A stretch of DNA of 33,756 nucleotides, taken from an uncultured Eubacteriales bacterium. Lineage in GTDB: Bacteria; Bacillota; Clostridia; Oscillospirales; Oscillospiraceae. Numbering within the stretch: the stretch's first letter is position 1; every line of letters starts with the position of its first letter. The stretch lies in assembly GCA_900316335.1 (NCBI GenBank), contig ONCN01000004.1, positions 1-33,756 on the forward strand, in the 5' to 3' direction. Positions 19,329 through 29,461 of the stretch are shown here, one piece after another. The translations under genes were made by a program, and so were the position numbers. Under the pieces are notes generated by a model. The model ran no database searches. It had not been told where the DNA came from and saw only the letters and a program-made list of their open reading frames with translations.

Positions 19329-20576
19329 ATGGAAACGCAGCAGCACAGCCGCGCGCAGCGGCGCAGGCAGGCAAAGCGGCAGTGGATCCTGCAGTGGGTC
19401 AAGTTTGTCGCCATGGTGAGCTCCACGATCTTGGTGATCGTCCTTGTGTTTGTGCTCATCCATACCATCCGCACAAGCCGCGCTGCACCTGAGCCGACCG
19501 AACCGCCTGTGACCACCCAGGCGCCCACAGAGTCAGAAACCGTGGATGTGAACCGGCTCGACCCGTCTGCGCGCACGCCGATCGAAAGCGTGGACATTCT
19601 GGCTTTGGGCGACAATCTTATGCACAACACCGTGATGTGGGCCGGACAGACGGACGACGGCTATGATTTTACGCCCATGTACCGCTACGTCCGCGACGAC
19701 GTCGCCGCGGCGGATCTGGCCTGCATCAACCAGGAGACCATCTATATCACAGATCCCGAGGAGTATACCAATTATCCGGAGTTCGGCGGACCGGTGCAGA
19801 TCGGTGAGGCCCTGGCAGAAACAGGGTTTGACATTGTGACCCATGCCACCAACCACTGTCTGGACAAGGGAAGCCGCGGCATCCTTGACACCGTGGCCTT
19901 CTGGAAGACCCACCCGGAGGTGACGTATCTCGGCATCCACGACAGCCAGCAGGACCACGATACCCTGCGCGTGGTGACCAAAAACGGCATCCGCATCGCC
20001 CTGCTCAACTACACCTACGGCACCAACGCAGGTCTGCCGGAGAAGGACTATATGGTGGACTATCTCTGGGACGAGGAGGAGATCGCAAAGGATATCGAAC
20101 GCGCCGCCGCAGAGTCGGACTTTATCCTGGTTTTTCCCCATTGGGGAACCGAAAACACCTTTGAGCCGGATGCAAAGCAGCTCTCCTGGGCGCAGTTCTT
20201 TGCAGACCACGGCGTCGGGGCCGTCATCGGCTGCCATACGCACACGCTGCAGCCTGTGACCGAGATCACAGGGAAAGACGGCAACAAAATGCCCGTGTTC
20301 TGGTCGCTGGGGAACTTCATCTCGCACATGGCCGAGGCGCAAAACATGCTCGGCGGCATGGCAAGGCTCACCGTCAGCCGGGATGAATACGGCGTGTACG
20401 TCAGCCGGTACAGCTTGGAGCCGACCGTGACCTACGCCTCGCACGAGGGCGGAAAATGGGCCTTCTGCGGCATGAAGCTGACCGACTACACCGACGAGAT
20501 GGCAAGGACCCATCTCATTGACGGCACGAGTCCAGACGAGATGAAGACATTATCTGAGTCCATCCTGCACCCATAA
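19329..20576 (+). CDS. CapA-family (PGA_cap) membrane-anchored protein
   Basis: 415 residues. A basic N-terminus and one membrane helix (about 25-47) are followed by a threonine/proline/glutamate spacer and a calcineurin-like PGA_cap domain. Metallophosphatase-type motifs are visible: ALGDNLMHN, ATNHCLDKG, VFPHWGTE and IGCHTHTLQ. Family members are named after the poly-gamma-glutamate capsule protein CapA, but most copies in gut clostridia lack capB/capC neighbours, as here, and their substrate is unknown. Outside-facing location is inferred from the anchor. AAGGAGGG lies eight bases before the ATG. Own promoter; a single-gene unit. Confidence 0.88.
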   Translation: METQQHSRAQRRRQAKRQWILQWVKFVAMVSSTILVIVLVFVLIHTIRTSRAAPEPTEPPVTTQAPTESETVDVNRLDPSARTPIESVDILALGDNLMHNTVMWAGQTDDGYDFTPMYRYVRDDVAAADLACINQETIYITDPEEYTNYPEFGGPVQIGEALAETGFDIVTHATNHCLDKGSRGILDTVAFWKTHPEVTYLGIHDSQQDHDTLRVVTKNGIRIALLNYTYGTNAGLPEKDYMVDYLWDEEEIAKDIERAAAESDFILVFPHWGTENTFEPDAKQLSWAQFFADHGVGAVIGCHTHTLQPVTEITGKDGNKMPVFWSLGNFISHMAEAQNMLGGMARLTVSRDEYGVYVSRYSLEPTVTYASHEGGKWAFCGMKLTDYTDEMARTHLIDGTSPDEMKTLSESILHP

Positions 20577-20610
20577 AAAACCGGCGCCCGCTTGCACAAA
20601 CGGGCGCCGG
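20574..20610 (-). terminator. Terminator of the SARP-like regulator gene
   Basis: Ten-base-pair stem CCGGCGCCCG / CGGGCGCCGG (20581-20610). On the minus strand it is followed by six T residues, so it ends the regulator transcript. On the plus strand there is no T tract. Confidence 0.85.
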
Positions 20611-20621
20611 CCTGCGTTATT

Positions 20622-21416
20622 TCAGAGTCTTTGGAACTTGCCTTTGGTTTCCAGGTTGATCCAGGTGGATTCCGCCCAGTCGTACTGGCGCATGTACTCG
20701 CCCTGGTAGGCGTCGATGCCGGATGGCAGCCCCTTGAGCCAGTCAAAGTAGTCGCAGGGGATCCAGTCCGGGATCAGACCCATCGAGCCCCGGCGGCGGA
20801 TCAGACACTGGCCCAAGCCAAGGCGCTCGAGCGTGTCCTTCAGATCCTTTCGGATCTGCTTGAAGTAGTTGGACCGGTCCGTTTCGCCGCCCCAGAGGAT
20901 GGTGACCAGCGTGTCGCTCTCCACCACGGAGCCGCGGCGGTCGATGAGATAGGCGAACAGCTCCTTTGTCTTCTGGTAGCGGAAGAGCACGGGCCTGCCG
21001 TTGAAGAAGACCTCAAAGTCGCCAAAGCAGCGGACAAACAGCCCGTCTTGGTTTTCCCGAACGGGATAGCGCAGATCGTCCAGCTCCTCCTGCAGGTTCT
21101 CTTCGCTCAGGGGCAGGAGCACGTAGCCAGAGGCGTGGATGCTGATTGCCTTCTGGGCCAGGCTGTCGTCGGGAGCTGTAAAGATGAGATTAAGCTCAGG
21201 CCGCAGCCGCTTCATTCGCTGGGCCAGCCGAAGGCTGTTCGGCTCTTCAAGGTCTGTACCCATGATCGCAATGCTCACCGGCTGTGAGCGGATCAGATCC
21301 AGCACCTGTTGCGGATCCTGATCGGTCTCGACCTGGGCCTGCGGCAGCAAACGCCGCACAAGCTCTGCGTCATGCGCCAGGCGCTCGGGATCCTTCTGCG
21401 CAACAATGACCATCAT
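20622..21416 (-). CDS. Pseudo-receiver/SARP-like transcription regulator
   Basis: 264 residues. Residues 1-115 have the pattern of a response-regulator receiver but lack its chemistry: the phosphoacceptor position is glycine 53 (IMGTDLEEPN) and the conserved lysine before proline is leucine (GYVLLPLS). Residues about 128-215 form an OmpR/SARP-like winged helix (FGDFEVFFNGRPVLFRYQKT, KELFAYLIDRRG, LWGG, QIRKDLKDTLERLG), followed by a short piece resembling the start of a bacterial transcription activation domain (DWIPCDYFDWLKG). It should bind DNA without phosphorylation. GGAGGG lies eight bases before ATG 21416. Its upstream region is the invertible promoter segment, so its expression is probably switched on and off. 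Target genes unknown. Confidence 0.83.
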   Translation of the reverse strand: MMVIVAQKDPERLAHDAELVRRLLPQAQVETDQDPQQVLDLIRSQPVSIAIMGTDLEEPNSLRLAQRMKRLRPELNLIFTAPDDSLAQKAISIHASGYVLLPLSEENLQEELDDLRYPVRENQDGLFVRCFGDFEVFFNGRPVLFRYQKTKELFAYLIDRRGSVVESDTLVTILWGGETDRSNYFKQIRKDLKDTLERLGLGQCLIRRRGSMGLIPDWIPCDYFDWLKGLPSGIDAYQGEYMRQYDWAESTWINLETKGKFQRL

Positions 21417-21477
21417 ATCGGTAACCCTCCATCTGATTGTGGATTATCCCGAGCAGGATCGCCTCATGTGGTCTGCA

Positions 21478-21498
21478 ACATAATCAATATTATGTAGT
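21478..21498 (+). repeat. Left inverted repeat of the promoter switch
   Basis: A 21-bp sequence whose first 18 bases are the dyad ACATAATCAATATTATGT (7-bp arms, asymmetric CAAT centre) followed by AGT. It is identical to the reverse complement of 21774-21794. The AGT end faces the segment. It lies 62 bases upstream of the SARP-like regulator start. Confidence 0.92.
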
Positions 21499-21525
21499 AA
21501 AGATAGGTTATAAAAGAAAGACAAC

Positions 21526-21537
21526 CTACTCAGGTAG
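21526..21537. promoter_or_regulatory. Palindrome at the predicted start of the switch transcript
   Basis: CTAC-TCAG-GTAG spans the predicted +1 (about 21535) of the minus-strand promoter. A neighbouring inverted repeat TAGGTT (21504-21509) / AACCTA (21523-21528) shares bases with it, so the leader could adopt two exclusive hairpins. May be an operator or a leader structure. Confidence 0.35.
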
Positions 21538-21541
21538 TACC

Positions 21542-21570
21542 ATTTTATCACTTAAATACGCTTTTTGCAA
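21542..21570 (-). promoter_or_regulatory. Sigma-A promoter inside the invertible segment
   Basis: Minus strand: TTGCAA (21570-21565), 17-bp spacer, TAAAAT (21547-21542), five of six matches in the -10 box. Directed at the SARP-like gene through the left inverted repeat. No promoter of similar quality reads the other way in the segment. Confidence 0.72.
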
Positions 21571-21626
21571 CAAAAAAACATGGAAAGAAACAATTGGATA
21601 TACTGTGAATACATACAAAAACGCAA

Positions 21627-21663
21627 GGAAAAATAGCCCTGCTCGATGAATGCGTGCAGGGCT
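21627..21663 (-). terminator. Insulating terminator inside the invertible segment
   Basis: Eight-base-pair stem AGCCCTGC / GCAGGGCT (21635-21642, 21656-21663) with a 13-base loop. On the minus strand it is followed by ATTTTTCC. It stops read-through from the recombinase side before the switch promoter. Confidence 0.7.
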
Positions 21664-21773
21664 GGTCGTTCGATACTATTCCAAGTAAGCCATATGTTTA
21701 CTAATGTACACTATAGTTACACTGTTTTTTTGAAAAAATGACCTCCCGGACGTCGTTTTCGGATTTTCAGTTC

Positions 21774-21794
21774 ACTACATAATATTGATTATGT
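21774..21794 (-). repeat. Right inverted repeat of the promoter switch
   Basis: Exact reverse complement of the left repeat. With the next three bases (to 21797) it forms a longer dyad with 10-bp arms around ATTG. The recombinase stop codon (21791-21789) lies inside it. Confidence 0.92.
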
Positions 21795-22679
21795 AGTATT
21801 GATTTCTTTCCAAGTGCACAAGTTCATCTGCTCAAGAAGGCGGCGGTGTTCGCGACCGGAGGATTGGATATGTATTCGCGTGGTATCCAGGCTGCTGTGC
21901 CCGAGGATGTCTGCAAGCTTGGACAGATCATGTGCCATCGCGTAGAAGGTCCGCGCAAACAGGTGGCGCAGGTTGTGCGGGAAGACCTTCCGCGGGTCGA
22001 CCTGGGCGACCTGACAAAGCGCCTTCATCTGCCGCCAGATGTTGCTGCGGCAAAGCGGCTTTCCGGTTTTTGTCACAAATACGCTGCCTTTCTTCATGCC
22101 CCGGGCCCGCAAATAAGCGGTCAGGGTGTTTTGCAGCTTTTTCGGCAAAAAGATCGTCCGGGTCTTGCCCTTGAGCACGACCACAGCCGTCCCGGTGCGC
22201 ACAGCCTCTACCGTGATATAGGGCAGCTCGCTCACGCGGATGCCGGTAGCGCAGATCGTTTGCAGGATCAGACCCAGCCTTGCGTCCTTCTGCCTCTGTG
22301 CCGCCCGGATGAGCCTTTGGTACTCCGCCCGGCTCAGCTCACGCTCCTCCCGGCTGAAAAACTGCCGCTGGATGCGAAGGCTGTGCGCCCGGCAGTCCTC
22401 CCAGCCGCAATAGCGGAAAAAGCTGTTGAGACTGGATAACATCGAGTTTACGCTTGCGTTGTTGTAGCCCTGGCAAACCAGCGCCTGCCGAAAGGCTGCG
22501 GTTCGCTCCCGACTGGCTTCTTGGCCGTCGAGAAATCTGGCGTACGTTCGCAGGTCTCGCAAATACTTCTGTTGTGTGTTTTGACTTTTTTCCTCGTCCT
22601 GAAGCCAGGCCTGATAGGCCCGGAGCACGTCTTCGGTGACAAGTCGTTTTGGGATTGATGCCATGGTTTGCACGTTCAT
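21789..22679 (-). CDS. Tyrosine recombinase of the promoter switch, nucleophile replaced
   Basis: 296 residues of the phage-integrase/XerC-D type. A SAM-like core-binding domain (about 15-95) precedes the catalytic domain with R148 (ATGIRVSEL), the LKGKTRTI hairpin (K170/K172), H235 and R238 (HNLRHLF) and H261 (LGHSS). In the final motif TTRIHIQSSG the nucleophile position, residue 270, is histidine (CAT, 21872-21870) instead of tyrosine, a single T-to-C change from TAT. The rest of the protein is intact. Start ATG 22679 follows AAGGAG by five bases. No convincing promoter lies between the trmO terminator and the gene, so expression may depend on read-through. Position beside the inverted repeats indicates it is the cognate invertase. 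Confidence 0.9.
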   Translation of the reverse strand: MNVQTMASIPKRLVTEDVLRAYQAWLQDEEKSQNTQQKYLRDLRTYARFLDGQEASRERTAAFRQALVCQGYNNASVNSMLSSLNSFFRYCGWEDCRAHSLRIQRQFFSREERELSRAEYQRLIRAAQRQKDARLGLILQTICATGIRVSELPYITVEAVRTGTAVVVLKGKTRTIFLPKKLQNTLTAYLRARGMKKGSVFVTKTGKPLCRSNIWRQMKALCQVAQVDPRKVFPHNLRHLFARTFYAMAHDLSKLADILGHSSLDTTRIHIQSSGREHRRLLEQMNLCTWKEINTT

Positions 22680-22721
22680 GGGGTCTCCTTTCTTTTCGGG
22701 GTCTGTTTGTGAGGCGGGAAC

Positions 22722-22763
22722 AAAAAGAAGCTCTCTCGTTCGGGAGAAAGCTTCTCTTTTTTT
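22722..22763 (-). terminator. Terminator of trmO
   Basis: Twelve-base-pair stem with one G-T pair (AGAAGCTCTCTC / GAGAAAGCTTCT, 22726-22737 and 22744-22755), T runs on both strands. On the minus strand it immediately follows the trmO stop. Confidence 0.82.
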
Positions 22764-28977: not shown

Positions 28978-29000
28978 ATGTATTACCCTCGCTTTCAGGA
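28972..29000 (-). repeat. Inverted duplication, copy at the NlpC gene start
   Basis: The ribosome binding and start region of the NlpC gene. Reading on the minus strand, TCCTGAAAGCGAGGG is exactly repeated on the plus strand at 29434-29448, and CATATGAAA follows both. About 26 of 29 bases agree with one gap. Confidence 0.8.
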
Positions 29001-29001
29001 A

Positions 29002-29292
29002 TTACTTGGACGACAGCGCTCTTTCGAGCCAGACACAACCCACGTCAAGGGCTGTGTAGAAGCCGTCCTTCTCGCTTTTTTTCACGACCCGCTCTCTGGG
29101 ACGAACGGTCTGATCGGTGAGCTGAAGCTGAACCGAAACCTTCGTGGAGAGCTTGAGATCCTTGAAATCTTTGGACTCCAGAACCTGTAAAATCACAATG
29201 TATTTATCGGCCATAGAGCCGTAATATACGATGTTGTCTTTTCTCATCAGAGGATGGCCTTTGTACATCAGGCCATCTTTTTGATCTGCCAT
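29002..29292 (-). CDS. Unrecognised 96-residue protein
   Basis: 96 residues, charged, no signal peptide or membrane helix. Segments: a short N-terminus (DQKDGLMYKGHPLMRKDN), a hydrophobic strand (KYIVILQVLES) and a lysine-rich middle (KDFKDLKLSTKVSVQLQL). No family was recognised. A textbook promoter and TAGGAGG support it as a real gene. It ends 24 bases before the NlpC gene start with no terminator, so the two are probably one transcript. Inverted copies of the NlpC start region lie on both sides. Function unknown; a small cytosolic protein is all that can be said. Confidence 0.82.
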   Translation of the reverse strand: MADQKDGLMYKGHPLMRKDNIVYYGSMADKYIVILQVLESKDFKDLKLSTKVSVQLQLTDQTVRPRERVVKKSEKDGFYTALDVGCVWLERALSSK

Positions 29293-29433: not shown

Positions 29434-29461
29434 TCCTGAAAGCGAGGGGAACCATATGAAA
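29434..29461 (+). repeat. Inverted duplication, orphan copy of the NlpC gene start
   Basis: Plus-strand copy of the NlpC RBS and ATG region. Here the ATG is followed by AAA TTG TAA, so no protein results. Inverted TCACAATTTG (29401-29410) and CAAATTGTGA (29468-29477) repeats flank it. Probable remnant of a duplication or one arm of a rearranging segment. Confidence 0.75.

Follow-up and report, generated by a model that had tools for sequence, protein, structure and literature searches.

A perfect inverted repeat pair lies between a recombinase gene and a regulator gene

The window, by which we mean the whole analysed stretch of 33,756 nucleotides, contains a short AT-rich segment that is bounded by inverted repeats, with a tyrosine recombinase gene on one side and a regulator gene on the other. 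The features of this locus are listed below.

19375 to 22761, no strand: stretch holding a PGA_cap gene, the regulator, the inverton and the recombinase; two genomes of the genus (L313, L314) have amidohydrolase and trmO without it in between
20622 to 21416, minus strand: regulator, a degenerate receiver followed by an OmpR-type winged-helix-like C-terminal part; ATG at 21416, preceded by a GGAGG ribosome site
21478 to 21498, no strand: left inverted repeat, target side; 18-bp dyad ACATAAT-CAAT-ATTATGT at 21478-21495; site consensus from 113 related loci
21499 to 21773, no strand: predicted invertible segment, 275 bp, in the ON orientation (promoter towards the regulator)
21542 to 21570, minus strand: putative sigma-A promoter, TTGCAA-17-TAAAAT
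about 21663 to 21635, minus strand: predicted intrinsic terminator between recombinase and promoter; hairpin of -16 kcal/mol (z -4.3) with a T run after it
21774 to 21794, no strand: right inverted repeat, recombinase side; dyad ACATAAT-ATTG-ATTATGT at 21777-21794; contains the recombinase stop codon
21789 to 22679, minus strand: Xer-related tyrosine recombinase, member of an inverton family in Clostridia; first Met at 22679
21870 to 21872, minus strand: CAT codon, encoding His where the catalytic nucleophile is expected

Read along the minus strand, the order is recombinase gene, terminator, promoter, left repeat and regulator. The two repeats are identical over all 21 bp and 275 bp apart; shuffling the window 100 times gave longest inverted repeats of 17 bp at most (mean 12.7 bp). 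An earlier note on this DNA had described these repeats and a recombinase gene ending inside the right one, and both observations hold. The same dyad occurs in each repeat, with an asymmetric four-base centre. The stop codon of the recombinase (TAA, 21789-21791) falls within the right repeat, in its outer arm, so inversion would leave the recombinase unchanged.

The earlier note had also proposed a leftward terminator and a sigma-A promoter aimed at the regulator. The hairpin supports the terminator. A lone promoter match in the segment is not above chance (1 found versus 1.5 expected); the promoter call is supported because its position recurs across related loci, its -10 end lying 44 bp short of the 22-bp exit site, a distance in the most frequent class among family members.

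Beyond these two, no further perfect copy of the site was found in the window's own genome. An Rfam search gave no match, and the flank-site junction was not found by exact search of viral contigs. A second inverted repeat pair of 15 bp occurs in the window (28986-29000 and 29434-29448), enclosing a short minus-strand open reading frame (29002-29292) with no recombinase adjoining.

Related recombinases are followed by paired sites of the same form

Relatives of the recombinase with about 44-57% amino acid identity occur across Clostridia. Among 400 genomes of the taxonomic family, 109 encode one, the window's own being counted, and so do hundreds of GTDB stretches. The relatives in genome and viral contigs came from a search with an alignment as query, a single-protein search having found none. 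Past the recombinase stop lie paired dyads with the consensus ACAtAAT-NNNN-ATTaTGT, a median of 11 bp beyond the stop and with a median spacing of 260 bp. Strict matched pairs were present at 52 loci of the own-family set and at 66 of 82 other loci, compared to 1 of 465 shuffles and none of 82 control stretches lying 1.2-2.1 kb further on; roughly 40% of the own-family loci had no detectable pair near the recombinase.

The four-base centre varies between loci yet matches in inverse within a locus. When pairs were picked by their arms alone (n = 97), the centres matched in inverse in 96 and directly in none, the constraint to be expected if strand exchange at two sites inverts the intervening DNA. 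The reading of the dyads as recombinase core sites, first made from their asymmetric centres, is thereby strengthened. Inverted sites with matching asymmetric centres around a promoter, as expected of an inverton, are thus found here. Comparison of more than 100 related loci strongly supports this cassette type as a genuine invertible promoter.

Some members of the family depart from the simple arrangement. At six loci (L068, L077, L081, L095, L127, L260) the recombinase adjoins another recombinase-like protein with about 30% identity to it, and in the three of these that were read through (L095, L127, L260) the second protein is missing the catalytic motifs and the tyrosine, a recurrent catalytically dead partner. 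Three loci (L075, L072, L067) have at least three family sites each, which could also allow segments to be cut out or inverted piecemeal. Family members are present as well on contigs called viral (L249-L262), where the gene that follows at L249 resembles a DNA methyltransferase gene.

Promoters in the family point mostly towards the recombinase

Orientation was called with a hand-made promoter score and a shuffled threshold. The family promoter is close to TTGcaw-17-TATAAT, and its distance inwards from the exit site is mostly 33-38 or 44-47 bp. By this score the promoter points to the target (ON) at 14 loci and to the recombinase (OFF) at 53, with none or both at a further 45. The OFF excess in the assemblies, 53 versus 14, has a binomial p of 2e-6. 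On the recombinase tree each ON is a separate change (14, against a shuffled-label mean of 13).

Inversion itself left a trace at one pair of orthologous loci. L180 and L184 have recombinases with 83% identity, and their segments align with 70% identity over 236 positions only if one is reversed (otherwise 54% over 164), so that an orthologous segment stands in opposite directions in two species. Both orientations are therefore found among the relatives, while the window is assembled in the ON orientation. At 7 of 80 GTDB loci the contig breaks off no more than 100 bp from the 3' end of the recombinase gene, and at none does it break off that close to the 5' end; such breaks are expected if the assembler encountered both orientations. 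Two near-identical pairs (L091/L092 and L130/L144) each share one orientation and are uninformative on flipping.

The distances from promoter to site cluster at about 24, 35, 45 and 56 bp, roughly one helical turn apart. This spacing suggests phasing between promoter and site.

The recombinase of the window has histidine in place of the catalytic tyrosine

In tyrosine recombinases the tyrosine is the covalent nucleophile. Its position in the window's enzyme was assigned by alignment to XerD and is occupied by histidine, a feature that the earlier note missed. An active enzyme of this class is expected to have Arg, His/Arg, His and the nucleophile Tyr; in the window's enzyme the remaining catalytic positions that were checked are conserved (R, H, R, H) and the reading frame is intact. 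Tyrosine is present at this position in 194 of 196 aligned sequences. Since the window's enzyme deviates at only one of 66 near-invariant columns, this one, general decay was rejected. Identity as XerC or XerD by the NCBIfam equivalogs was rejected too (120.0 versus 335.15 bits for XerC and 128.8 versus 329.6 for XerD).

The sole other histidine among the 196 members is at L100, which shows one site and no partner, with the target gene following directly; any link between the Tyr-to-His change and loss of a segment depends on this one other locus. The histidine codon is one transition away from a tyrosine codon (at 21872, G on the plus strand gives His and A would give Tyr), and it could stem from misassembly or from a minority allele. 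No second member of the family was found in the window's genome.

The regulator resembles an orphan and the cassette is absent elsewhere in the genus

The receiver of the regulator (P0002) has glycine in place of the phospho-acceptor Asp, has lost the acidic pair and has leucine in place of the conserved Lys, and so is without the residues of a phosphorylated response regulator. These residues are kept in L297, L299, L300 and other relatives. The earlier description of a pseudo-receiver/SARP regulator is borne out in its first half. A SARP needs an OmpR-type DNA-binding domain together with a BTAD domain; Trans_reg_C matched weakly (E 0.0097) and BTAD gave no match, which leaves SARP unproven and usable only as a loose label.

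Two orthologues in the genus (L297, L298), 50% identical to the regulator, are followed by a gene that reads by eye like a membrane kinase, and neither the recombinase nor upstream repeats were found beside them. Because its receiver residues are lost and these orthologues precede a kinase-like protein without recombinase or repeats, the window's regulator looks like an orphan, whose level rather than its phosphorylation would carry information.

Amidohydrolase and trmO flank the stretch from 19375 to 22761 in the window and are adjacent in two genomes of the genus (G263 and G252). The stretch would thus have been gained in the window's genome or lost in these two. In the other searched genomes of the genus the recombinase is absent, with only Xer-like matches near 30%. 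The conservation of the repeats between relatives, to which the earlier note attached weight, extends across the recombinase family and does not extend to the window's own genus, where the cassette is absent.

The cassette is probably frozen in the ON orientation

We read the locus as a genuine promoter-inversion cassette that was assembled ON and is probably frozen ON in the window's genome, with a probability of about 0.65. The cassette would be self-contained, the Xer-related recombinase gene abutting inverted sites around a promoter and a terminator. Recombination at the dyads would turn the promoter either towards the downstream gene (ON) or towards the recombinase 3' end (OFF). In its present orientation the segment would transcribe the orphan pseudo-receiver regulator, and freezing would make that expression constitutive. 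In the OFF orientation the promoter would read antisense into the recombinase with no terminator between, and it could be conjectured that this provides feedback. Freezing is probable because the nucleophile is replaced and the genome has no other family member; as the repeats are still perfect, any loss of switching would be recent.

The claim of freezing rests on one base. An alternative is that the promoter is still phase-variable and the regulator bet-hedged, as originally proposed, if the histidine was introduced by assembly or belongs to a minority allele, or if another recombinase flips the segment in trans. The perfect repeats, the intact remaining near-invariant columns and a cassette type that is clearly invertible all speak for this. 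On the other hand, the assembly does have histidine at the nucleophile and a second family member is lacking. Further integrase-family genes exist in the genome and could in principle use the sites, but no comparable inverted-site pair was found beside any of them. We therefore regard continued switching as unlikely, though it is the chief competitor. The original proposal of an invertible promoter that switches the regulator thus stands for the type of cassette, while switching in the window's genome at present is doubtful.

It is far less probable that the histidine-bearing enzyme still works on its sites, alone or in a mixed complex. Its intact reading frame and its R, H, R, H residues would permit this, but the missing residue is the nucleophile, it is kept almost throughout the family and the one other member with histidine shows a single site. 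Least probable of all, to the point that we give it almost no weight, is that the repeats serve as operators, or as RNA hairpins where two transcription units end. The palindrome does resemble an operator, and as RNA the dyad could form a weak hairpin (-3.3 kcal/mol); neither role accounts for centres that differ by locus yet match in inverse within it, or for an orthologous segment found inverted.

A wider reading, which goes beyond the frozen cassette and which we offer only tentatively, is that the recombinases and their own invertons form a large Clostridia family, undescribed in the open literature and horizontally gained. Its promoters would be helically phased at the spacings given above, and the antisense direction of the OFF promoter would be a built-in bias towards OFF. 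Loss of the nucleophile would domesticate such a switch to a fixed promoter, and the window may have been caught just after freezing ON before a phosphorylation-independent regulator. The family accounts for more than 100 promoter switches in mostly uncultured gut Clostridia of animals, aimed at surface proteins and regulators; with recognisable sites and a recombinase for each, their switching states should be readable from metagenomes. A switch frozen by one catalytic residue would, if true, be a natural case of phase variation given up. The OFF excess raises the question of what biases the flip.

Regulators are recurrent targets of invertible promoters

The earlier note knew of no described switch upstream of a regulator of this kind. 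As an inverton target it is neither unique to the window nor new, because related cassettes also precede regulators and cases in C. difficile have been described. Signalling genes lie near inversions in Clostridia (PMC5903667), the signal-transduction operon CmrRST lies behind an invertible element (PMC6837544) and the c-di-GMP phosphodiesterase PdcB behind an invertible promoter (PMC9286219). Within the family, L065 precedes a histidine kinase and a response regulator that is 34-38% identical to the window's, and L091 a receiver-GGDEF protein followed by a PilZ protein. Other regulator targets are a LytTR response regulator (L132), a GGDEF-EAL protein (L230) and, as second gene, a BTAD regulator (L260).

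The cmr switch (Cdi6), which depends on RecV, resembles the window in that an invertible element stands upstream of signal-transduction genes, and a single inversion affects a regulator together with the genes it controls (PMC6837544, PMC5903667). It differs in that RecV acts on several genomic switches and a c-di-GMP riboswitch adds control, whereas in the window one recombinase, without its tyrosine, adjoins its own site pair and the regulator is without a phosphorylation site. The pdcB switch (Cdi2) is, like the family, an invertible promoter for a signalling protein (PMC9286219), as the relatives L091 and L230 illustrate with their GGDEF/EAL targets; unlike the family, it is a 174 bp element that is bounded by imperfect repeats of 19 bp and lies 840 bp upstream of its gene, and its recombinase was not identified. 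Cdi7 is alike in arrangement: this invertible site lies near a recombinase (CDR20291_3416) and is unaffected by RecV (PMC5903667). A PhaseFinder survey of gut communities describes invertible elements in Firmicutes_A whose repeat motifs differ by group (groups 139 and 125; PMC11892184).

Most downstream genes in the family look, as judged by eye, like large secreted or surface proteins. At eight loci (L112, L113, L117, L136, L137, L138, L161 and L238) a protein with zinc-ribbon-like motifs (VWWRC..GH.W) is encoded between the inverton and the surface-protein gene.
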